A stretch of DNA of 64,000 bases from Polyangiaceae bacterium. Its GTDB lineage: Bacteria; Myxococcota_A; Polyangia; Polyangiales; Polyangiaceae. Positions 44,068 to 58,659 of the stretch are shown one piece after another. The DNA lies in NCBI GenBank assembly GCA_025353725.1, contig JANXOF010000023.1, forward strand, positions 62,001 through 126,000, written 5' to 3'. Every line of letters starts with the position of its first letter. Position 1 is the first letter of the stretch. The notes beneath the pieces are model-generated. The model was not told the DNA's origin. It searched no databases and saw only the letters and a program-made list of their open reading frames with translations. Position numbers and translations under genes: made by a program.

Positions 44068-45495
44068 GTGGTTAGCGGACGCGGACGCGGTTTGACGCCG
44101 AATCCGCAGCGTGCGGTTCGCGACCGGCACGTCACCGTTCGCGACGTCGCGGGCGGCGTGGCCGTTGCCCTGGTCCACGCGGGCCTCTGCGCTCTCGTGC
44201 TCGTCGTGGGCTTCGACCACATCTCGGACGACGACTTCGCGCGGGTGACGATAGCCCAAGCCTTTGCCCACTCCCCCAGGCTCGATCCAAGCGGAACGAG
44301 TTGGCTGCCGTTTCCGTTCTGGACCCTCGGCAGCGTGATGACCGTGATCGGCCGCTCGCTCGCCGCGGCGCGCATGGCATCCATAGGTTTTTCGAGTTGC
44401 GGGTTTGGGGTGTTCTATCTCGCGCTTCGCATCGCTCGCATCCGCCGTTCGCGTGCGATGGCCGGAGTCGCGCTTGCCGCTCTCTCACCCTGGACTCTTT
44501 GGCTGGGCGCGGCCACGGTGCCGGAGTCGCTGACGGCGACCTTGAGCGCGGCGGCAGCGATCGCACTCGGAAGCGCTTCGACGGGGACACCGAAAACCCG
44601 AGGCAGCCAGATCCCGTTCGCCGTCGGGATGTTGGCCGCTTGCTTGTCACGCTACGAGGCGTGGCCCGTCGCGGCGATGCTCGCGCTGGTGGTTGGTTGG
44701 CGAACTTTCCGCGTGCGGCTCGTTCGCAACCCGAACGAAGTTTGCGCGCCGACGCGTTTCGTCGCGCTCGTGACCGTCGCCATTCTAAGTGCAGGGCCTC
44801 TCGTTTGGATGACATGGAACTGCCGCGTTCATGGCGACGCGCTCCACTTTTTCGAACGCGTCAGCCGCTTCAAGCGCGCGTTGGGCGAAGGCTCTTCGGA
44901 TACGGTCGAGGCGCTTCTTTTCTACCCTCGCCTGCTCGTCACGATGCGGCCCGAACTCGTCGTCGGATTTTTGTGCGCTTTTACGGCGCTAAGAGGCTTC
45001 AAGGTTTCGATCGACGAGTGCGCCCATCGCTGGCGAATCCCTCTGCTTTGCGCCGTGGCTCAGGTCGGTTTCCTTGCCTACGGCAACGCGCACGATGGTG
45101 CCCCCACGCACCACGGCGAGCGCGCGCTCCTTGGGGTGGTGCTCCTTTTCGCCGCGTGCACCGCGGACGTGGTCGCCGAGGCCGCGCCCGTCCTGTGGAG
45201 GTGGTCGCGACCGACCGCTGCGGCGGGAGGTTTCGTCCTCGTCGCGTTGTGGCTCGGAGCTACGGTTGCCACGCTCCGCGCGATGCCAGGCACGGGCACG
45301 GCCGATCGGCGCGCGCAGGTGGCAGCCGGCGACACGTTGCGCCGTGAGGGCGCCTCCAGACTCCAACTCACGCCGTGCGCCTACGAGCACTTCGCGCTGA
45401 TCGCGGCCTACGAAGCTCCAGAAAACGTCACGGTTTACACGCCCTCGGGTGGACCACGCGTCACGTCCACATGCCCAGCGGTCGAACGTCGGTGA
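44068..45495 (+). CDS. GT-C-like membrane glycosyltransferase
   Basis: A 475-residue polytopic protein (about ten membrane segments). After the first segment the loop HISDDDFARVTIAQAFAHSP has the acidic cluster typical of GT-C enzymes, and LDPSGTSWLPFPFW follows. It resembles mannosyltransferase/arabinosyltransferase-like proteins that use polyprenyl sugars; the exact substrate is unknown. The start is a GTG. It precedes the first PRMT-like gene by 13 bases, so it is probably in one transcript with it. Compare the other GT-C-like protein at 3436, which does not look closely related. Confidence 0.65.
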   Translation: MVSGRGRGLTPNPQRAVRDRHVTVRDVAGGVAVALVHAGLCALVLVVGFDHISDDDFARVTIAQAFAHSPRLDPSGTSWLPFPFWTLGSVMTVIGRSLAAARMASIGFSSCGFGVFYLALRIARIRRSRAMAGVALAALSPWTLWLGAATVPESLTATLSAAAAIALGSASTGTPKTRGSQIPFAVGMLAACLSRYEAWPVAAMLALVVGWRTFRVRLVRNPNEVCAPTRFVALVTVAILSAGPLVWMTWNCRVHGDALHFFERVSRFKRALGEGSSDTVEALLFYPRLLVTMRPELVVGFLCAFTALRGFKVSIDECAHRWRIPLLCAVAQVGFLAYGNAHDGAPTHHGERALLGVVLLFAACTADVVAEAAPVLWRWSRPTAAAGGFVLVALWLGATVATLRAMPGTGTADRRAQVAAGDTLRREGASRLQLTPCAYEHFALIAAYEAPENVTVYTPSGGPRVTSTCPAVERR

Positions 45496-45508
45496 TATAC
45501 CCCTCCCG

Positions 45509-46744
45509 ATGCCGCAAACGACGCCGAACGACGACCGCGGCGACGCGCCGACCGTAACCTCTGAACGCGTGCGCATACTCGTGCGCGCACGCGAAATGCT
45601 TGTGAAGCTCACCGACGAGGACGAGGTAGGGGTCGACCTGCAAGGAGATCGCTTTTACTTCCCGCGCGTTGCGCTCATGCTCCTTGATCGCTTTGCCACG
45701 CCATGCGCTATCGGAGACGTCTTGGCCGAACTCGCGAGCGCCGGCGCCGAGCGCCAGAGCGAAGCCAAGAGCTGCATCGAGCATCTTGCACAGAGCGGCA
45801 TCCTCGTCCGACCCGACGAACGCGAGCCGTTGGGTTCTCGCGGGTGGGTCAAGCCCGCCATCCACCTTATTATGCTCGACGATCGGTCGCGAACGGGCGG
45901 CTTTTGTCATGCCCTGCGCGGCGCGGTGAAGCCCGAGGATGTGGTCGTCGACATCGGAACCGGGACGGGGGTCCTCGCGACCTGCGCGGCTCTTGCCGGC
46001 GCGCGAAAGGTCTACGCCGTCGAGTCGAGCGGCATCGCCGAGGTTGCGGCTCGCGTGTTTGCAGCCAACGGCGTCGAAGACCGGGTAACGCTCGTCCGCG
46101 AACGTTCGACGACCACCACGCTTCCCGAGCGGGGCACGCTGCTCGTGACCGAGACCATCGGAAACGATCCGCTGGACGAACAGCTCCTCGAGATTGTCGC
46201 GGACGCAAAGAAGCGCCTGCTGGTGCCCGGCGCCCGCATCGTCCCGTCGGCCATCGAGATCTACGGAATCGCGGTAGATATCCCGCGCACCGTTCTCGAG
46301 CGGCATGTGTTCACGAAGCGAAAGGTCGACGGCTACACCGAGGCCTACGGGATCGACTTCTCGCCGCTCGAGCAGCATCGACTCTCCTGCTCCGACCCCA
46401 TCATGGTCGACAACCGTGACGTCGCGACCTGGCCGCTCTCAGCGCCATTTTTGCTCGCATCCATCGACCTGACAGGCCCCTTCGAGACGGTCCTCTCCTC
46501 GCAAGCCACGGTGAAACTCTCACGCGACACGCAGTACCTCGGAATTATGCTCGCGTTTCGGGCGACACTCGCACCCGGTATCGTGATTTCAACGTTGCCC
46601 GAGGATTTCGACCCCACCTGCCACTGGGCGCACGCGCTCTTCCCCGCGTTCGACTTGCCCGTCGCCAGCGGCGGCACGTCAATCGAGGTCGACTACAGCT
46701 ATGACCGCGGATGCACGACGCTGCGCGTTGCGCAAACCACGTAG
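45509..46744 (+). CDS. PRMT-like methyltransferase with N-terminal PqqD-like domain
   Basis: A 411-residue protein from ATG 45509. Residues about 22-100 follow a PqqD-like pattern (VGVDLQGDRFYFPRVALMLLD, IGDVLAELASAG, EHLAQSGILV), as in RiPP leader-binding domains. The rest resembles a protein-arginine methyltransferase: IHLIMLDDRSRTGGFCHAL before SAM motif I VDIGTGTGVLA (about 147), an acidic residue after strand 2 (VYAVESSGIAEVAA), TETIGNDPLDEQLLE in place of the double-E loop, and a C-terminal beta-barrel. The protein substrate is unknown. It is next to the lasso-type cluster but separated from it by transposase debris. Its 3' end recurs at 49447. Confidence 0.7.
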   Translation: MPQTTPNDDRGDAPTVTSERVRILVRAREMLVKLTDEDEVGVDLQGDRFYFPRVALMLLDRFATPCAIGDVLAELASAGAERQSEAKSCIEHLAQSGILVRPDEREPLGSRGWVKPAIHLIMLDDRSRTGGFCHALRGAVKPEDVVVDIGTGTGVLATCAALAGARKVYAVESSGIAEVAARVFAANGVEDRVTLVRERSTTTTLPERGTLLVTETIGNDPLDEQLLEIVADAKKRLLVPGARIVPSAIEIYGIAVDIPRTVLERHVFTKRKVDGYTEAYGIDFSPLEQHRLSCSDPIMVDNRDVATWPLSAPFLLASIDLTGPFETVLSSQATVKLSRDTQYLGIMLAFRATLAPGIVISTLPEDFDPTCHWAHALFPAFDLPVASGGTSIEVDYSYDRGCTTLRVAQTT

Positions 46745-49524: not shown

Positions 49525-51165
49525 TCAACCAAGGCGAACACGCGTGCCTTCGAGTGACGAAAGCTCGCGGGTGTGGGCCGCAAGTGCGACCATGCGACCG
49601 CGGGCAAGAAGCTCTGAAATCACGTCGACGACAAGCTCGATACCCGCCCTATCGAGATTCGCGTCGGGCTCGTCAAGCAAGTAAACCGCGGCGTCTTGGA
49701 GGAGCACTCGCGCCAACGCGAGTCGTTGTCGCTGCCCGGCCGACAATTCGCCGACGGAGACCTCGAGCACCTCGTTTTCGTTTTCGCGGCGATCGTTGCT
49801 TGTGCGCGAGAAAGGCTGGCTAAGCCCGACGCGTGTAAGCGCAGTCATCAGCGCGCTGTCCTCGGCGCCAGCGGCCGCGATGAGCATCGCGTCTCGCACC
49901 GTTACGTAGGATTCGCCCAGGTACGGGCGCTGCGGGAGGTAGGCGATTTTTTGCCGAAAGGAGCGGAGATCGAGCTGCTCAAAGGGGATTGCAGCAACAG
50001 TCAGAGTTCCGTGTTTGGGCAAGCGGAGGCCGAGCAAAAGGCGCAAAAGAGTGCTTTTCCCCGAACCGTTCGGACCCTCGACGATAAGCCTCGTGCCTGG
50101 AGTCCAATTGAACGAGACGTCTCGAAACGTCGGCGCGTGGTCATCAGCGTAGGCAAACGCAAGCTGCCGGGCTTCAATGGTGGCCGGCATCGGAGGCGGT
50201 GCGCTTCCCTCGCGCGCAAACTCGGGGCGAAGACGCACGGCAAGGACATCGAGGACCGGACGTACCATCGCGGAGACGCGGAGCACGTCGGACGTCCGCA
50301 TCACGACTCCCAAGAGAACCGGAGCGGACGCCGCGAGGACCAGCGCTTGCCCGAGCACTTCGGCCCTGACGGCTTCGCGGTTCGAGGCATCGAAGAAGAA
50401 CACGAGGAGTACGACCGCGATCCCGACGACCAGCGGAGCCCGCCCCAGCAAAGCCGCGCTCCACGAACCGCGATACGCCACGCGCCGATAGGCATGTATT
50501 GCGCATGCAATCGCACGGAGCGCGGTTGCATCGCCCCCACGGGAGACCAGCTCAAGGCGCCCATCCATCGCACTCGCGACGTGCTCCCCGACCGCCAATT
50601 GGGCATCCGCGACGAGGGACTGGGCGGTCGATGTTACGCGTCGGAGCAACCAAAGAGCAACGAAAACAGAGCTGGTCGCGACGGCTCCTACGGCGAGCGC
50701 GCGGAGTGAGAGCCTCATCGCCAGAAGCGGAACCACCGCGAAGAGAGCAAGCGCGCTCGCAACAAGCTCCGGAACGATCGTGCTCACGAGTGCGCGTGCG
50801 TGAAAGGCGGGCTCTACCAGCGCACGCGGCGTGTGATGACTCGACACGACAAGCACGTCACCTTCGATCAGGGAACGCGCGAGTGCGTATTGCAGATCGC
50901 ATTCAGTTTGTACCCGTACGCGGTTGGAGGCGATACGAATAAGTGCGAGAGTGAGCATGGCGGCACCACCGACGGGAATCGCCGCACGAGAGTGGCTGTC
51001 AGCCAGCGCGACGACTGCGGCGAGAGTCAACACCTTGGCGCCAAGGAGAAGACTGACCAGAACAGCGAGGCCTGCGCGAAGCGAGAGGGACGTGGTCGCG
51101 TAAAGCGAAGAGATCGTACGGACCCACGCGAACGATGTTTGCGTGGCTCGTGGTAGCGACTGCAC
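49525..51165 (-). CDS. ABC exporter (fused TM and ATPase domains)
   Basis: A 546-residue half transporter: about six membrane segments in residues 20-300, then the ATPase with Walker A GPNGSGKSTLL near 365, Q-loop IAYLPQRPY, signature SVGELSAGQRQRLALAR near 480, Walker B AVYLLDEPDANLDRAG and H-loop LAAHTRE. Type and size fit peptide exporters (LasD/McjD-like) of lasso and other RiPP clusters; no peptidase C39 domain is present. It likely exports the mature peptide. Its start lies about 47 bases from the divergent PRMT-like gene, so a shared promoter region is likely. Confidence 0.9.
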   Translation of the reverse strand: MQSLPRATQTSFAWVRTISSLYATTSLSLRAGLAVLVSLLLGAKVLTLAAVVALADSHSRAAIPVGGAAMLTLALIRIASNRVRVQTECDLQYALARSLIEGDVLVVSSHHTPRALVEPAFHARALVSTIVPELVASALALFAVVPLLAMRLSLRALAVGAVATSSVFVALWLLRRVTSTAQSLVADAQLAVGEHVASAMDGRLELVSRGGDATALRAIACAIHAYRRVAYRGSWSAALLGRAPLVVGIAVVLLVFFFDASNREAVRAEVLGQALVLAASAPVLLGVVMRTSDVLRVSAMVRPVLDVLAVRLRPEFAREGSAPPPMPATIEARQLAFAYADDHAPTFRDVSFNWTPGTRLIVEGPNGSGKSTLLRLLLGLRLPKHGTLTVAAIPFEQLDLRSFRQKIAYLPQRPYLGESYVTVRDAMLIAAAGAEDSALMTALTRVGLSQPFSRTSNDRRENENEVLEVSVGELSAGQRQRLALARVLLQDAAVYLLDEPDANLDRAGIELVVDVISELLARGRMVALAAHTRELSSLEGTRVRLG

Positions 51166-51212
51166 GGGCGTCCCTTTACCTTGCGCTATCGAGATCTGCT
51201 AGGTGTTGCACC

Positions 51213-52337
51213 ATGTATTCGGTGTTGTCTTACGGTCGCATGGCGTGCGACGGCGTGCGTATCGACGCCTACGCGCGCGCCATTGCGCAAACCGTTCGCC
51301 CCGGCAGCGTCGTCATTGACCTTGGCAGCGGCACGGGGACCATGGCGATGCTTGCGCTGCGAGCGGGCGCAAAGCGCGTTTACGCCGTCGACTTGGATCC
51401 CGCAGTCTGGCTCGCACGAGATATCGCGCAGGAAAACGGTTACGCGGATCAACTTGTCGTACACCACGGCAGCTCGCTGGAGCTGAACTTGCCAGAGCCT
51501 GCGGACGTCGTCATTGCTGACTTGCGCGGCAGCTTTCCGCTTTTTCAACAACATCTTGCGGTGCTGAGAGACGCGCGCACGCGCCTGCTCAAGCCTGATG
51601 GCCTACTCGTCCCCAAAAAGGACCGCTTGTTCGTCGCCTTTGCCGAAGCGGACGCTTGCCGCCTGAACTTAGAGCCAGGCTGGACGAGCCTGGAGCGCCA
51701 CGGCTTTTATGCGCAGAGTGCGCGGCAGGCGACGCTCAACGCCTCGTACACGGACCGCGACGCGCCCATCCGCGCGAACCACCTGGTGTCGGACGCGAAA
51801 GTCTGGGGCGAGATCGTTTATGGAGAGTCGTTCGAGCGCTCGATGAGCGCGACGGTCGACCTCACGTTCACCCGAAGTGGGACCGCAGATGTGCTTACCT
51901 TGTGGTTCGAGGCTACCCTTCACGAGGGCATTGTTTTCAGCAACGCGCCCGGTCACCAGCTTGTTTACGACCGCGTCGTCCTCCCGTTGCTCGCCCCTGT
52001 TCGCGTTGCGGCTGGCGATCGAGCTCGCGTCACGTTGCGCGCAGACGTCGAGGGCAACCAGTGGGCTTGGGAAACCACGATCGGAAGCGGCGCACGGGTG
52101 CGACAAGCCACATTTCTCGGTCTTCCAGCCTCGCCCGAATCGCTGGTTCGGCAATCGCTCACGGCGACGCCTCGGCGCTCTTTACGCGGTGACCGCGCGG
52201 CAAGGCTTCTCCCCTTGCTCGACGGTGAGCGAACCGTCGAAGAGCTCGTGAACGTCGCGGCAGCCGCCGAGCCGGAGCGAAATCGCGAGGAGCTCGTGGA
52301 GGAAGTGAAAACGCTCGTTCGCCACTACGGACGCTGA
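51213..52337 (+). CDS. PRMT-like methyltransferase with C-terminal PqqD-like segment
   Basis: A 374-residue protein from ATG 51213 (MYSVLSYGRMACDGVRIDAY matches the PRMT start; earlier starts run into the exporter gene). SAM motif I VIDLGSGTGTMAM at about 35-46, VYAVDLDPAVWLA next, IADLRGSFPLFQQH where the double-E loop would be, then a beta-barrel domain. Residues about 310-374 (AARLLPLLDGERTVEELV, LVEEVKTLVRHYGR) look like a PqqD-type or winged-helix segment. The domain order is opposite to the PRMT-like protein at 45509. It converges on the GT2 gene with 13 bases overlap. Confidence 0.7.
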   Translation: MYSVLSYGRMACDGVRIDAYARAIAQTVRPGSVVIDLGSGTGTMAMLALRAGAKRVYAVDLDPAVWLARDIAQENGYADQLVVHHGSSLELNLPEPADVVIADLRGSFPLFQQHLAVLRDARTRLLKPDGLLVPKKDRLFVAFAEADACRLNLEPGWTSLERHGFYAQSARQATLNASYTDRDAPIRANHLVSDAKVWGEIVYGESFERSMSATVDLTFTRSGTADVLTLWFEATLHEGIVFSNAPGHQLVYDRVVLPLLAPVRVAAGDRARVTLRADVEGNQWAWETTIGSGARVRQATFLGLPASPESLVRQSLTATPRRSLRGDRAARLLPLLDGERTVEELVNVAAAAEPERNREELVEEVKTLVRHYGR

Positions 52338-53188
52338 GCGCAAGCGGCGATGGCCTCGCGAGCGAGCGTGCACTCGTGGGCGGTGGGAGGCCGGCCACGA
52401 CGAAGCACGAGTCTTTGCGAAAGGCCCGCTGTGAAGAGCGCGCGCATGAGGCATGACTTCATGCTCGCGGCGGCGACGAGACGGGTCGTCTCCAAGCGTC
52501 CCACAAAAGCCGGGCCGTACTTTTTCGCGACGACTCTATTTTGGCGCTGCGCCTCGACGTAGCTTGAAAGAAAACTTCGCTTCGTCACATCGACACGAAT
52601 GACATAGAGCGGTTCGGCAACGACCTCGATGCGACTTGCGAATGTGCGGCACCACAAGTCACGATCTTCTGCGCGGGTAAGCGTTTCGTCGTAAGGATTC
52701 GCGAGGAACCAAGCGCGCCTTCCGAGCAACGTAGCGTGCGGTACGACGCCTTGAAGAAGTGCCGAGCGCCGCGTCGCCGGCAACGGCCCGCTTTCGACCA
52801 CGGCGAAAGGGTGCGTTTCGGCGTCAACGAGAATTGCCCACGTTCCAACGGCATCGCACGAAGCGTCGGCGTCGAGAACCGCGAGCTGCAGTGCGAGACG
52901 CGAAGGGTGCATCATGTCGTCAGCGTCAAAGCGCGCAACAAGGGGCGTGCGCGCGCGACGGACGATCTCGTTCAAGCGCGCGGGAAGGTAGCGGCGCTCG
53001 CCATCCGCTATCAGCGTGATGCGCGGGTCGCTGAACGATCGCGCAATGGCAAGCGAGTCGTCGCGCGACCCGTCGTCGATGAGCATGAGCTCAAAGTCGC
53101 TGACCGACTGCGCAAGCACCGATCGAATCGCCGAGCCGAGCGTGCGGGCTTCGTCGAAAAAAGGTAGACCCACCGTGATGCGCGTCAT
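52325..53188 (-). CDS. Family 2 glycosyltransferase
   Basis: A 287-residue GT-A fold enzyme: start ITVGLPFFDEARTLGSAI, DFELMLIDDGSRDDSLAIA near 34-52, FDADDMMHPSRLALQ near 88 as the DxD-type metal site, and EDRDLWCRTFASRIEV near 178. It would move a sugar from a nucleotide sugar to an acceptor. It overlaps the nucleotidyltransferase gene by ATGA (53185-53188), so the two are probably co-translated. Possible role in sugar tailoring of the cluster product is inference. Confidence 0.85.
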   Translation of the reverse strand: MTRITVGLPFFDEARTLGSAIRSVLAQSVSDFELMLIDDGSRDDSLAIARSFSDPRITLIADGERRYLPARLNEIVRRARTPLVARFDADDMMHPSRLALQLAVLDADASCDAVGTWAILVDAETHPFAVVESGPLPATRRSALLQGVVPHATLLGRRAWFLANPYDETLTRAEDRDLWCRTFASRIEVVAEPLYVIRVDVTKRSFLSSYVEAQRQNRVVAKKYGPAFVGRLETTRLVAAASMKSCLMRALFTAGLSQRLVLRRGRPPTAHECTLAREAIAACAQRP

Positions 53189-54198
53189 CGCTCGCTTCCG
53201 AGCAGCCGCCTTGCGTGCGCCAACGAGGACGTTGTCGCGTAGCGCAGCGACGCCTCCGCCGCGTCGGTGAGCATCATCGTGTAGGCGAAGCGCGTTGCGG
53301 AGCTCAGCACGCGTTGACGCGGCTCAAAGAGCGTCTGGTAGAGGAGAGCGCGTCTTGCCGAAGAGAGCGTGCCCAGCGGGCGCACCCGCGCGGGCGCGAC
53401 GTCAAAGACGGAGACGAGGAGCTCGCCCGCGAACGCGAGGACGCGAGAAAGGCCTACCTGGCGCGCTCTTTTTGCGGCTTCCGCCAGCGTTGGCTCTGCG
53501 AGCCGGTCGACCATGAGCCGCAAGTCGTAAAGCCAAGACAAACGCCCAAACCGGTGGGAAGCGGCGTGGACCGCGAGAAAGACGAACTCATCGGCCGGTG
53601 ACGGTACACGCAGGGCACGAAACCCTAGAGCAGGTACACTTCGCTCGAGTAGCGCTTCCGAGCGGAGCGTGACTCCAAACCCACGGTGAGCGTGAAAGTG
53701 GAGCTCGAGATCAGGATAGCCCGGGCGTGCGAGATGAAGGTGATGATGCTCACGACGCGACCAGGCGATCTCGTCGGCGGAGTCGATAACGACAAATCCG
53801 ACCCCCGCGAGAGCCTTCACGGTCACGTCGAGATCGCGCTCGTCGACCAGAATATCGATATCGCTTGTCCCGCGAGCCGACGGCCTAGCGTAATACCGGG
53901 ATGCAAAAAGGGCGCCTTTCAACGCTACTGTCGGGCGCACGAGGCACGCGTCGATCGCATGAAGCGCGTTTAGATGCGCCTCATAATCCAACTCGCGCGC
54001 GACAGCGCTCAGGGCGCCGCGGTGCGATAGGTCAGCGTCAACTTCGCCGGCTGACGAACGCACGGCGTCCCACAGAATGCCCGCGACACCGTGTGCCTCA
54101 GCGACGAGAAACGTCTCGAGCAGGAGGCCCCCCGTCGACACTGCAAGAGGGGCATCGCTCAACCGGGCGGCTACGGAGCGAATATCGCGTAGCCGCAC
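53185..54198 (-). CDS. Nucleotidyltransferase family protein of RiPP-cluster type
   Basis: A 337-residue protein of the uncharacterised nucleotidyltransferase family (NTP_transf_5-like). Core pattern: RPTVALKGALFASRYYARPS, RGTSDIDILVDERDLDVTV with the paired Asp residues near 116-118 as metal ligands, then HHHLHLARPGYPDLELHFH with a third acidic residue, and a helical C-terminal part (PADEFVFLAVHAASHRFGRL). Such genes recur in HprK-containing lasso clusters, where their role is unknown. Translationally coupled with the GT2 gene. Confidence 0.8.
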   Translation of the reverse strand: MRLRDIRSVAARLSDAPLAVSTGGLLLETFLVAEAHGVAGILWDAVRSSAGEVDADLSHRGALSAVARELDYEAHLNALHAIDACLVRPTVALKGALFASRYYARPSARGTSDIDILVDERDLDVTVKALAGVGFVVIDSADEIAWSRREHHHLHLARPGYPDLELHFHAHRGFGVTLRSEALLERSVPALGFRALRVPSPADEFVFLAVHAASHRFGRLSWLYDLRLMVDRLAEPTLAEAAKRARQVGLSRVLAFAGELLVSVFDVAPARVRPLGTLSSARRALLYQTLFEPRQRVLSSATRFAYTMMLTDAAEASLRYATTSSLAHARRLLGSER

Positions 54199-54209: not shown

Positions 54210-55169
54210 TCAGTTGCGAAAGGCGCCGCAAGAAGTTCCCCAATACACTTCGGGCGACTTACATACGTACGGCTCGGTTTCGGGGCAAATACCGTTGTTG
54301 CACCAAATACTAAATTGGCAGGGTGCGCCTAAGGGACGAGCCGCTTTACACTTTTGCTGGCCGACGGGTATCGGTAAGCCGTCTGCGGGGCTGTACGTCT
54401 CACAGAAAGCGCTGTTCGTGGCTCCCGCGCGGTAGGAGCAAACTTCGTCGCTCCGATCCTTAGCCGTGACGTTCCCGCATGAACCTTCAAGGGGAACGAG
54501 AGCGGTACAGACGCCGGGACCCACACCGCCGTCGCTTGCCTGCTTGCAAAAGTTATCCGGCTTGCACTCAATGCTCTGAGTGCAATTACCACCGGGCTCG
54601 ACGAGACCCACATAAACTCCGAAGCAAGCATCCCGAATGGCCTTGAATTCGGTACCCGGCAGATTGCAGCTCATCGCCTTGGCTTTCGCGAGACAAGAAT
54701 CGCCGGCCTGTCGGTCAATCGCAATTTTGCCTTTCGTTTTCAGCGCGCTATCCGCATTCGATGACTCCCAACCCAAGGGCGTGTACTTGGCGATGCAGGC
54801 GGCTTGGTCGAACGTCCCACCATCGGCACCTCCGTCGGCCGGCGTGGAGTTTCCATAGCAACAGCGCGCGAGCGACTCGCAAAGTTGAGTCGCGAGCCGG
54901 ACATCGAAGGAGAGCACGTCAAAGCCGCCGTCGGCCGAAGCGTCGGCCCCATCGACGCCCGCATCCGTCAATCCGCCATCCTCCGAGGCAGCTTCGACGG
55001 CCGCGTCTTTTTCTTTGCCCGAGTCCGCCCCAGGGCCCCCGTCAGGCGTGCTCGCGTCGAGACCAACCACCGTGTCGTCTCCCGTGCAAGCGACCAGCAT
55101 TGCTGCGGTAACGCCCGCGAAGAGTGTGGCTCCGCCGAAGAGAGCGACGAGTCGAAATTGATTTCTCAT
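54210..55169 (-). CDS. Cys-rich, Asp/Gly-rich lipoprotein
   Basis: A 319-residue lipoprotein: Arg-containing N-terminus, hydrophobic stretch, lipobox MLVAC near residue 28, then an Asp/Gly/Ala-rich linker (DAGVDGADASADGG). The mature region has about 17 cysteines (for example LCESLARCCYG, CTQSIECKPDNFCKQ, CNNGICPETEPYVCK) in a pattern like other Myxococcota Cys-rich surface lipoproteins. It lies inside the lasso-type cluster between the PqqD gene and the nucleotidyltransferase, same strand, so it may be co-transcribed but may equally be an unrelated insertion. No function assigned. Confidence 0.75.
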   Translation of the reverse strand: MRNQFRLVALFGGATLFAGVTAAMLVACTGDDTVVGLDASTPDGGPGADSGKEKDAAVEAASEDGGLTDAGVDGADASADGGFDVLSFDVRLATQLCESLARCCYGNSTPADGGADGGTFDQAACIAKYTPLGWESSNADSALKTKGKIAIDRQAGDSCLAKAKAMSCNLPGTEFKAIRDACFGVYVGLVEPGGNCTQSIECKPDNFCKQASDGGVGPGVCTALVPLEGSCGNVTAKDRSDEVCSYRAGATNSAFCETYSPADGLPIPVGQQKCKAARPLGAPCQFSIWCNNGICPETEPYVCKSPEVYWGTSCGAFRN

Positions 55170-55231: not shown

Positions 55232-55543
55232 CTATAGCCGCTTTTCGGCTTCCACTACAACCGCCAGCTCAAGGAGATGATATTTGCGTAGCTGTGCGAC
55301 GAGGGCGCAGATGTCCCGCAGCGCCTCCGCGTGACTTACCTCGTAAAGGCATGTGAGCCGCCCTGCGATTGCCCCGAGCGGTTCACAAGATTCAAGGCCA
55401 CGCCAGACTTCGCTCGCGATCGGGTCGAGTCCGAAATACTCGCCCTTCCCAAACTCGAGCAACACCATCTCGTGCCCGAACGCCCGCGCGTACACGCTCG
55501 AAGCAATGGTTACGAGTGAGGCTTCGTCAACGGTGTCGTTCAT
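55232..55543 (-). CDS. PqqD-family leader-binding protein (lasso B1-like)
   Basis: A 103-residue PqqD-family protein (ATG 55543): VYARAFGHEMVLLEFGKGEYFGLDPIASEVWRG is split here as VYARAFGHEMVLLEF then GKGEYFGLDPIASEVW, the typical beta-hairpin and helix, and the C-terminal helix RDICALVAQLRKYHLLEL. In lasso clusters such B1 proteins bind the leader peptide. The start overlaps the kinase stop (ATGA), placing it in the same operon. A B2 peptidase domain is not fused to it. Confidence 0.85.
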   Translation of the reverse strand: MNDTVDEASLVTIASSVYARAFGHEMVLLEFGKGEYFGLDPIASEVWRGLESCEPLGAIAGRLTCLYEVSHAEALRDICALVAQLRKYHLLELAVVVEAEKRL

Positions 55544-56340
55544 GGAGTTCTCGAGAGAGCGTTATCGGCGACGAAGCGCGCCGTTGCCGCAAGGAGGTCA
55601 AGCTTACGGGGTCGGTGGAATCGGAGCACGGGCGTTTGGTCGATCAGCTCAGCGAGCGCGTCAATGTCTCGTCGCGCCACGTGCGGCTCGTCGACAACAA
55701 ACCGCGTTAGTTGCGAGAGCAGCGCGGCCACCGCGTCGCAGCCTGAAACCGCTTCGAGCCGTATCAAAGAGTCCTCACGCCCGTCAAAAGCGAGCGTCAC
55801 GACGCGGGCGAGCGGTACGCGGTCAGCCGCACGTGGGCGCCGCTCGAAAGGCGCTTTGCCCTCGCGGAAAGGACCGCCAGCCGAGCGCCCCACGGCGCGC
55901 GCTGCAGGAACGTCGAGCCAGTGGCTTTCGTCGAGCGCCAAAACATCGAACGAGTCGCCACTGCGTACAATCACGACGGCGTCGTCGCCAAGGAGAGAAG
56001 CCCCTTCCCGTTCGCAGAGCGCCGCGGCGAGCGTGGACTTGCCATCCCCCGCGCCGCCGAGAAAGACAACCGCACGGCCACCTATCGCGATTGCGGAGGC
56101 ATGAAGCGGGATGTCACCGCGCAAGTGGGCGAGCAGTAGCGGAAGGGCGCCCTGTTGCAACTTTGCGATGTCAACTGCAGCGGCCGATGCAGACGGCTGG
56201 AACTGAACGTCGGTACCGTCACGCCGTACGGAAAGCTTCGCAAGACCTGGCCACTCGGCGACCATGGACTCGGCGTCTCGACCGACGCGTGCCGTGACGA
56301 TGTCGCCGTCGAACGATTCTGCGAGCCAAGACACCGTCAC
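55540..56340 (-). CDS. HprK-like kinase
   Basis: A 266-residue protein with GTG start at 56340 that overlaps the cyclase stop (GTGA). The C-terminal part is HPr-kinase-like: IPLHASAIAIGGRAVVFLG near 78-95, then Walker A GGAGDGKSTLAAAL, and SLLGDDAVVIVRSGDSFDVL (Walker B-like acidic pair DD) near 118, plus ALDESHWL. In paeninodin-type lasso clusters a kinase of this type phosphorylates the precursor C-terminal Ser. Here the predicted core ends in Pro, so the target may be another residue or another molecule. Function by analogy only. Confidence 0.85.
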   Translation of the reverse strand: MTVSWLAESFDGDIVTARVGRDAESMVAEWPGLAKLSVRRDGTDVQFQPSASAAAVDIAKLQQGALPLLLAHLRGDIPLHASAIAIGGRAVVFLGGAGDGKSTLAAALCEREGASLLGDDAVVIVRSGDSFDVLALDESHWLDVPAARAVGRSAGGPFREGKAPFERRPRAADRVPLARVVTLAFDGREDSLIRLEAVSGCDAVAALLSQLTRFVVDEPHVARRDIDALAELIDQTPVLRFHRPRKLDLLAATARFVADNALSRTP

Positions 56341-57725
56341 GACGCCCTCCCGCGGAGCCACGCCTCGACCGCAAGCGCAGCCCACAATTCTACCCAGCTT
56401 TCGCCGTGTTCAGGCTCTGCGACAAACCGTTCAAACGCCACGCGAAACGCGTCCGGCTCGACAAGCCCGAGCGACGCCAGCTCGCGCCCTGAGGCCAGTG
56501 GCCGAAGCGATTCAAGCCCTCCGGCTGCTTCGACCCATCGCCGCATAGCCGGTTCGAAACTCGCTTTGTCCATCCGATCGCGAAGCGAGCTCGGAAGCAG
56601 GTCATGCGCGGATGCGCGAAGCAAACCCCGCCACCGGTCACCAAAAAGCAGGTGCTCCGGGGCCATCGACGCGACAGCCGCGATGAGGTTGCGGTCCATA
56701 TAGGGATACCAGAAGTCTAAACCTGACGCGTGCTCCTGCATCTGACGACCCGCAGCAACGATGGCTTGGTAGGCCGGGTCGGTCATCGCCACCAGGCGCT
56801 GCGCCGCGTTCATGGGCAAGCGGCTGAGGAAGCGACTTCGCAGTCGCCGCTTGTCCTCGAGGTAGGTCCGAACGATCGGGCCCGCCCATGGCACCATGCT
56901 CGTCGCTCCGTACCGAAACGTCCTCCAGGCACGCACCGCCGGGGGAAGCGCCCGACCCAAGAAAGGACGGACGACCCAGGACCAAGCCGGACTCGGAGGC
57001 CGGTTGAACCCGTTTAGCCGACGCGCTGTTCGTATGGCCGTCAGCGGGTGGCCGCGACGCGCGACGTTCACAAGGGCTGCAGGGTTCCCTCCGAAGAGCT
57101 CGTCTCCACCAGCCCCTGCGAGCATCCGCTCGGCTCCGTTGGCTTTCGCGCGGACCATCAGCTCAACCTCCATCGGCATCGTAGAGGACGTCGCAGGCGC
57201 ACCGTCGACGCCTGACCGCATGAGAGCGATTCGTGGAGCCGCATCTTCCGGTCGCATACGGATAACCTCGCACCCAAGGTGCTTTTGAAGCGCGCTGAGA
57301 TACGGGCGATCGTCGCCGGGTCCACCAAAGTCGAGGCATGCCGCGAACGCCGTTCCTCCCGTCCGCCTTGCCCACTGGACGGCGAGGCCGAGGAGTACCG
57401 AAGAATCAAGTCCGCCCCCCGTCATCACGGCCACGCGCCGAACGCCATCAAGGGCTACGTCTACGCTTCGCTCCAAAGCACGGCGGAGAAAGGCTGGTGA
57501 CTCTTGCAGAGAAGGCAGCGATGAGGGCCACTCGAACCCGCGATCGGCGTAGAGCCGCGAGGTTACGCCGGCGTACAAGGTCATCTCGGGTCGGTTCTCG
57601 GTCCAGTAACTTACCCAGGCGGCAAGGCCCATCAAGTCTAGCGCGCTTCGAGGGCCTGCCACGTCGGAGAGCAGGTTCGATTCCTCGATTCCGCGTCGAT
57701 AAGCAAGCCGTGTCGGGCCTCCCAC
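56337..57725 (-). CDS. Asparagine-synthetase-like lasso cyclase, short form
   Basis: A 462-residue protein. The ATP-binding PP-loop TGGGLDSSVLL at about 102-112, GAGGDELFGGNPAAL at 204-218 and WYPYMDRNLI near 345 match the asparagine synthetase C-terminal domain as used by lasso cyclases (C protein), which adenylate an Asp or Glu side chain and close the ring with the N-terminus. Lasso cyclases are usually near 600 residues with an N-terminal glutaminase-like domain; only about 80 residues precede the PP-loop region here, so that domain is largely missing. It starts 12 bases after the precursor gene. Confidence 0.82.
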   Translation of the reverse strand: MGGPTRLAYRRGIEESNLLSDVAGPRSALDLMGLAAWVSYWTENRPEMTLYAGVTSRLYADRGFEWPSSLPSLQESPAFLRRALERSVDVALDGVRRVAVMTGGGLDSSVLLGLAVQWARRTGGTAFAACLDFGGPGDDRPYLSALQKHLGCEVIRMRPEDAAPRIALMRSGVDGAPATSSTMPMEVELMVRAKANGAERMLAGAGGDELFGGNPAALVNVARRGHPLTAIRTARRLNGFNRPPSPAWSWVVRPFLGRALPPAVRAWRTFRYGATSMVPWAGPIVRTYLEDKRRLRSRFLSRLPMNAAQRLVAMTDPAYQAIVAAGRQMQEHASGLDFWYPYMDRNLIAAVASMAPEHLLFGDRWRGLLRASAHDLLPSSLRDRMDKASFEPAMRRWVEAAGGLESLRPLASGRELASLGLVEPDAFRVAFERFVAEPEHGESWVELWAALAVEAWLRGRAS

Positions 57726-57737
57726 TCCGGCGGGACC

Positions 57738-57926
57738 TTAGGGCTTTTTCGCGCCCGGCGTGCCATCCATTTGACCTCCAGACGGCGAACCTAACGTTAG
57801 GTCTCGTACGGAACCGAGGCTGCGAACATACGGCGGACTGTACGTGCGTCGCGGACTTACGGCGGTGGGAATCGCACGGGACTCGGGGGCGTTTGACGGC
57901 GGGTTGCTCTTGGGTTCAGGCGACAT
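57738..57926 (-). CDS. Lasso peptide precursor
   Basis: A 62-residue peptide with ATG 57926 and the ribosome site AAGAGGA seven bases before. The leader is Pro/Ser-rich and ends YSPPYVRSLGSVRDLTL, matching the lasso leader pattern (Tyr-x2-Pro...Gly...Thr at the penultimate position). Cleavage after Thr-Leu leaves the core GSPSGGQMDGTPGAKKP of 17 residues, in which the amino group of Gly1 and the side chain of Asp9 would give the nine-residue macrolactam. The tail has eight residues. It is the first gene of the unit precursor-cyclase-kinase-PqqD. Core boundaries are predictions. Confidence 0.85.
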   Translation of the reverse strand: MSPEPKSNPPSNAPESRAIPTAVSPRRTYSPPYVRSLGSVRDLTLGSPSGGQMDGTPGAKKP

Positions 57927-57937: not shown

Positions 57938-58221
57938 CGGCATAGTGGGTTGCGCGCCCGTGCCGACGCATTCACAAGGGTTCTATCTGACTTCCGCCGG
58001 AGCTTCAACTCAGCGCTGCGTTCCGTGCGCGGTATGCTCGGGTTTACTCGCCGGCGGAACGACAAAGACGTGCCGAGCCGAACGGTCCGCACGCGCGCTG
58101 ACCTCGCGGTGAGACGGCCTACCTTCTCGTAAAGCACGGTAAAGGACGGAATGTCTCGCGCACTCGGACGTCTGCGTTAAAGGGGACGACAACAAGGTCC
58201 TTAGGAGAGAGCAAAGACACC

Positions 58222-58659
58222 ATGCGTTCACACATTTTCGCCACGGTCATCGCCCTAGGTACGCTCCTCACGACAACGGCGTTCGCGGCGCCCTCGGATG
58301 CGCAGCCCCCAACAGGGACGGAGCACGCCGAGCGAGGCGAGAAACACGAAGGACACAGGCACTTCCCAATGCCGGCCGCAGACTTCAAGGCCAAGGTTGA
58401 CAGGCACCGAGCCCGGGCGCGGGCCCGGATGGAAGAAGAAGCAGGAAAAGCCTCTGCGGACGAGGCCAAAGCGCTTCGTTCAACGTTTGAGGCGAACGCG
58501 CAAAAAGTCGATGCCGAGGTTGCGAAAGCCGTCGCCGATGGCACCGTTACGAAGGACGAAGCGAAAGCCGTTCGCGCCGTGAGCCCTCATCACGGCCGAC
58601 ACGCGCACGCTCGCGGCGGGGCGCACAGCGACCGCGGCCCCCACCGAAACGGTGTATGA
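58222..58659 (+). CDS. Secreted His-rich small protein
   Basis: A 145-residue protein with a signal peptide (VIALGTLLTTTAFA then APSDA). The mature protein has His clusters at both ends (GEKHEGHRHFPMP and SPHHGRHAHARGGAHSDRGPH) and a charged, helical middle (ARARARMEEEAGKASADEAKALR, split here as ARARARMEEEAG then KASADEAKALR). Metal binding (zinc, copper or nickel) in the periplasm is plausible from the His clusters. No family is recognised. A good ribosome site (GGAGAGAG) precedes the ATG. Divergent from the lasso precursor gene. Confidence 0.75.
   Translation: MRSHIFATVIALGTLLTTTAFAAPSDAQPPTGTEHAERGEKHEGHRHFPMPAADFKAKVDRHRARARARMEEEAGKASADEAKALRSTFEANAQKVDAEVAKAVADGTVTKDEAKAVRAVSPHHGRHAHARGGAHSDRGPHRNGV

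Follow-up and report, generated by a model that had tools for sequence, protein, structure and literature searches.

By one description, a lasso peptide cluster requires a precursor together with a leader peptidase and a cyclase (PMC13352647). The bsf cluster of Bradymonas sediminis FA350 shares with the locus described here a precursor, a separate RRE, a cyclase, an ABC exporter, an HprK-like kinase of the same motif and a nucleotidyltransferase (PMC10368454). Its kinase, BsfK, phosphorylates core Ser3 and acts inside the ring region (PMC10368454), which resembles the kinase reading proposed below. Of the two, only bsf possesses the leader peptidase B2, Ile at position -2, an Asp8 ring and Ser3 (PMC10368454), whereas the window (the whole stretch of 64,000 nucleotides analysed) has no detectable B2, Thr(-2), Asp9 and Pro3 with Ser2 and Ser4, in addition to a Cys-rich lipoprotein and a family 2 glycosyltransferase (GT2). 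The pseudomycoidin (psm) and paeninodin (pade) clusters also share the kinase (PMC9266682, PMC8498205), and psm has a nucleotidyltransferase, PsmN, linked to the hexose on the phosphate of pseudomycoidin (PMC9266682). Both clusters contain B2 (PadeB2, PsmB2; PMC10368454). They modify a C-terminal Ser, whereas the core in the window ends in Pro and no B2 was found in its cluster. Pseudomycoidin is said, in the title of a 2019 study by Zyubko, to have formed in vivo without leader and leader peptidase. In the cochonodin I system, cited in a review (PMC10885120), leader removal likewise does not rely on a free-standing B2, the peptidase being part of a fusion with the ABC exporter; in contrast, the family scan indicated no peptidase domain in the exporter of the window.

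As read from the sequence, the usual lasso recipe is incomplete in the cluster of the window and in those of its close relatives. The core is new in sequence and belongs to a known kind, and the oddity is a cluster without B2 together with a lineage-specific lipoprotein. Rules for finding clusters commonly look for a leader peptidase, and B2-less clusters may therefore be overlooked. If such clusters are functional, the leader can be removed independently of B2, and a further peptidase is still to be discovered. In the open-licence literature, no described lasso cluster lacking B2 and no lasso peptides of this bacterial group were found, which is no proof of novelty.

Precursor and gene unit of the window

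The window lies within a 6.6 Mb draft genome (G000), 97.6% complete, and its features are collected in Table 1. The initial annotation had read a lasso-type leader and core at this position. This interpretation is supported, and the frame, on the minus strand, is a real lasso-type precursor gene. The 45-aa leader ends in YSPPYVRSLGSVRDLTL and carries the pattern YxxPxL...G.....T(-2)x, with the consensus Leu changed to Val; in an alignment of 15 precursors, Y29, P32, L37, G38, V40, R41 and T44 are invariant. The match to the NCBIfam model lasso_leader_L3 (NF033521) is 19.2 bits, narrowly above the cut-off of 19. Moreover, a leave-one-out profile made only from the precursors of relatives gave E 6.4e-15 for this frame among 1,498 frames of the window (next frame, 0.003), and the pattern Y..P.....G.....T occurs a single time in the six frames of the whole window. 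A longer in-frame start exists at 57971; the start at 57926 is preferred because of the alignment with relatives and the ribosome-binding-like site.

Table 1. Location of the lasso-type cluster genes and precursor elements in the window
Feature	Position	Strand	Evidence or remark
Lasso precursor gene	57738..57926	-	62 aa + stop; ATG at 57926, TAA at 57738-57740
Leader, 45 aa	57792..57926	-	Recognition motif Y(-17)SPPYVRSLGSVRDLT(-2)L at 57792-57842
Core GSPSGGQMDGTPGAKKP	57741..57791	-	Predicted Gly1-Asp9 nine-residue macrolactam ring
Ribosome-binding-like AAGAGGAA	57930..57937	-	Sequence, shortly 5' of precursor ATG
Lasso cyclase (C), asparagine-synthase family, 462 aa	56337..57725	-	PF00733 119.6 bits; NF033561 102 bits
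HprK-like kinase, H / GxGKST / DD motif	55540..56385	-	Motif + family scans
PqqD / RRE (B1)	55232..55543	-	PF05402 53.4 bits; lasso_PqqD 36 bits
Conserved Cys-rich lipoprotein, lipobox LVAC, directly after PqqD	54210..55169	-	Sequence + relatives
NTP_transf_5 nucleotidyltransferase	53185..54198	-	PF14907 111.8 bits
Family 2 glycosyltransferase (GT2)	52325..53188	-	PF00535 76.6 bits
Class I methyltransferase, weak PqqD-like C-terminus	51135..52337	+	PF06325 46 bits; PF05402 only E 0.18
ABC exporter	49525..51165	-	PF00005 96 bits

The core has Gly1 and Asp9, in agreement with the lasso pattern of Gly, Ala, Ser or Cys at position 1 and Asp or Glu at position 7, 8 or 9. This spacing for a nine-residue macrolactam, pointed out initially, was confirmed across the bacterial family: all 53 distinct family cores have an acid at position 7, 8 or 9 (shuffle mean 11.9, maximum 23), a single acid only being present in 45 of them, and 52 of the 53 have a small residue at position 1. 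Among cores outside the search model, the ring acid is found in 38 of 38 (shuffle maximum 20, 10,000 rounds). The family-level evidence for a predicted Gly1-Asp9 macrolactam is therefore strong. The nearest cyclases belong to Labilithrix sp. and other Polyangiaceae or Myxococcales metagenome-assembled genomes, and the cyclase homologues of relatives have a lasso-leader precursor next to them: a simple pattern showed this at 18 of the 19 loci examined at the start, and the profile at 19/19. At E<=0.01, the precursor profile detected the leader in 51 of 108 family genomes, with doubt attaching to the weakest hits. At E<=1e-6 the count was 35 of 184 genomes for the order, and every one of these 35 belongs to the same family; a lack of lasso-type leaders in homologues, named beforehand as grounds for rejecting the reading, was thus not encountered. 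The core had also been called new, which stands for its sequence; within its family it is ordinary, as GSPSGGPMDALPGGKRAM and GSPPGKAADGAGAKRNSM in sister genomes indicate.

The precursor had been described as the first gene of a unit with cyclase, kinase and PqqD genes, and a tight minus-strand unit was indeed found. With overlaps or short gaps, the order is precursor, cyclase, kinase, PqqD, lipoprotein, nucleotidyltransferase and glycosyltransferase, the last three being absent from the initial annotation; beyond them lie the methyltransferase, which is kept alongside related lasso clusters, and then the ABC exporter that canonical clusters have nearby. This order is common to G000, G002, G003, G007 and G011, with one rearrangement in G005. 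An asparagine-synthetase-like cyclase, as in canonical clusters, is present, and it retains the PP-loop GGGLDS and DKxxFEP, both conserved in alignment. Its NF033561 match starts at profile position 189, indicating that most of the N-terminal glutaminase domain is gone, and its score lies below the NCBI curated macrolactam cyclase cut-off of 300, as do those of the cyclases of B2-bearing sister loci. The PqqD/RRE protein matches the lasso RREs TbiB1 and TfuB1, so that a canonical B1 is present. Scans for promoters and terminators around the operon returned no signal stronger than in shuffled sequence.

In the kinase, the residues LHASAI, GGAGDGKST and LLGDD make up the H-(GxGKS)-DD motif and are conserved in 41-43 of 43 sequences. 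The reported kinase acceptors, C-terminal Ser for PadeK and ThcoK and core Ser3 for BsfK, are replaced by Pro17 and Pro3 in the window. Ser2 and Ser4 are present in the ring region, and Ser or Thr occurs at core positions 2-5 in 43 of the 47 kinase-linked cores.

Several additional genes were observed around the unit. A small secreted protein family (145 aa; 58222-58659, plus strand), divergently upstream of the precursor, occurs in eight lasso neighbourhoods. A PhyH-like Fe/2OG oxygenase gene is divergently upstream of relatives' precursors (L028 10060-10977, plus strand; L034 6566-7465, minus strand; and others) and is missing from the window. A second methyltransferase (45449-46744, plus strand), related to the first, lies ~3 kb past the ABC exporter, and its N-terminal stretch looks PqqD-like by eye.

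Leader peptidase B2 in the window and its relatives

No B2 leader peptidase, an enzyme of the canonical cluster, was found over cut-off in the G000 genome with NF033537, PF13471 or a family-specific B2 profile. The family profile hit ten genomes with E-values between 1e-38 and 1e-44, whereas it had no match at E<=0.01 in G000 to G007, G009, G011, G021, G035, G064, G065 and G087; the scores are bimodal. G001 was left out of the B2-less count, as a B2 of another type in another cluster was found there by NF033537 and missed by the family profile; in G065 the contig ends beside the precursor and a cyclase was not seen. Fourteen leader-bearing genomes (G000 and 13 others), several of them 94-100% complete, have no NF033537 match at E<=0.001. 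A missing B2 in one draft of the completeness of G000 proves little by itself, and the repeat across relatives therefore carries the argument.

Nine B2-bearing sister clusters from the same bacterial family (L033, L035, L119, L120, L121, L123, L125, L135 and L141) have the same leader, cyclase, kinase and RRE, and eight of the nine have the lipoprotein. They keep a B2 of ~110-130 aa, mostly right after PqqD, whereas in the window only 62 bases lie between PqqD and the lipoprotein gene. For loci whose neighbourhoods are intact, the best cyclase tree requires at least 4 changes in B2 presence, two of them being forced by well-supported branches. In a wider cyclase tree, the window falls in a group of eight same-genus loci, all without B2 (support 100/97). 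Apparently, the lasso pathway here lost B2, and more than once.

Thr(-2) is present in 28 of the 29 precursors from loci without detected B2, some of these loci being on truncated contigs. According to a review, the invariance of Thr(-2) is accounted for by a peptidase-RRE-leader model (PMC10885120). The conservation of this residue in B2-less loci suggests that the leader is probably still processed, by a non-B2 agent. Because B2, a defining enzyme, was searched for and not found, the cluster is regarded as a B2-less variant of the lasso cluster, not a canonical one. The absence of B2 also counts against the lasso reading, since no enzyme is otherwise known to expose the Gly1 amine. A B2 hidden inside the cyclase, kinase, nucleotidyltransferase or exporter was considered and rejected, as no such domain appeared in family scans.

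Two other arrangements were seen among relatives. In the complete genome G030, a B2 gene (L150 8086-8571; G030:C1:1026232) lies ~1.15 Mb from the lasso cluster, so that B2 may act in trans there. The lasso precursors of L120 (6724-7326, plus strand; G109) and L121 (6135-6761, plus strand; G108) extend past the core into a ~110-aa C-terminal domain, with the junction ...GTFMGGGTMMM-SSREAKEDI..., which resembles the S74 intramolecular chaperone/autoprotease (PF13884 18.3 and 17.1 bits, cut-off 22). If this is a self-cleaving follower, the C-terminus of the lasso peptide would be defined in an unusual manner.

The Cys-rich lipoprotein

The lipoprotein is secreted and has a lipobox, a linker rich in Asp and ~20 conserved Cys, and its family adjoins most of these lasso clusters. 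Across the bacterial family, 26 of the 38 strong hits lie beside a precursor, and further copies exist elsewhere in some genomes. In G000, two strong members were found, each at a lasso locus (one in the window, one on contig C87), and a third hit, on contig C93, is weak (36 bits). A fold search gave no match at E<=0.001, with weak Dickkopf/colipase-like similarity only (best Z 5.2 over 62 residues). If the B2-less clusters are functional, this conserved protein is a lead to the role of these peptides in myxobacteria.

The second lasso locus of G000 (L041 4533-8042, contig C87) has the core GRSSGFAEGAGTFIRPFM, a cyclase and a lipoprotein domain joined to a trypsin-like protease (PF00089 43 bits); its surroundings showed neither a kinase nor PqqD nor B2. 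A similar arrangement exists in G007 (L042), and G004 (L117) has a precursor and a lipoprotein gene of comparable length, with no cyclase detected. G021, G064 and G065 have three or four family copies, mostly away from a recognised lasso precursor; some are in long open frames and may be fusions.

Replacement of the leader peptidase by the lipoprotein was rejected as a simple answer: eight loci carry both the lipoprotein and a B2, and nearly every conserved column of the lipoprotein is a Cys, none being a His. The trypsin-lipoprotein fusion was likewise rejected as a general B2 substitute; it was seen in G000 and G007, and most same-genus B2-less genomes have a single copy of ordinary length.

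Proposed pathway and alternatives

The product is quite probably a lasso-type macrolactam RiPP with a Gly1-Asp9 ring, a ring Ser phosphorylated by the kinase, possibly a sugar, and a leader cut by a non-B2 peptidase. In such a pathway, the PqqD/RRE protein would bind the Y-x-x-P...G...T leader, and the kinase would probably phosphorylate Ser2 or Ser4. The nucleotidyltransferase and glycosyltransferase may elaborate the ring phosphate, perhaps giving a glycosylated product. Leader cleavage, after Thr(-2)-Leu(-1), would be the work of a peptidase which, B2 being apparently lost, would not be a recognisable B2. The ATP-dependent cyclase would then join the Gly1 amine to the Asp9 side chain, and the ABC exporter would move the product out. 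Outside, the clade-specific disulfide-rich lipoprotein may act on the product, most simply as a binding partner, anchor or immunity factor. The broader evolutionary picture is about an even bet: B2 dropped more than once in this lasso lineage, a different protease freeing the core, and a dedicated disulfide-rich lipoprotein acting extracytoplasmically (compare the trypsin-like fusion at the second G000 locus).

The missing B2 can be explained in other ways. A decaying cluster without product would fit both this loss and the lack of the relatives' Fe/2OG oxygenase beside the window's precursor. This is very unlikely: the genes for precursor, cyclase, kinase, RRE, lipoprotein, NTP5, GT2, methyltransferase and ABC exporter are all open, their order is maintained among the relatives listed above, and Thr(-2) and the ring acid were conserved in B2-less loci while the cores diversified. 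It is also rather unlikely that a B2 is present and the pathway fully canonical, the enzyme being too divergent or missed in the assemblies. The genomes are drafts, the distant B2 of G030 could act in trans, and the family profile did miss the G001 enzyme. However, the fourteen genomes lack B2 by two to three models, the profile scores are bimodal, and PqqD and the lipoprotein gene are contiguous at the very site where sister loci have B2.

A non-lasso macrolactam is an equally doubtful alternative. The leader may be kept and Asp9 joined to a Lys15/16-type side chain, consistent with the Lys-Lys in the tail and with no B2 to free the Gly1 amine. As a rule, the side-chain crosslink was rejected, because several B2-less cores (AGSGGALEGGRRMAM, GTGEMFPDFSGGPAGAMAAPM and GRSSGFAEGAGTFIRPFM) have no Lys and still keep a small first residue and an acid at 7-9. 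Alternatively, a Gly1 ring may form unthreaded. The tail, GTPGAKKP, has no aromatic plug, and residues as small as these would be unlikely to lock a nine-residue ring; the product could thus be a branched ring without threading. For the cyclised core of the preferred lasso-type reading, the computed monoisotopic mass is 1552.730, rising to 1632.697 with phosphate and to 1794.750 with phosphate and hexose.
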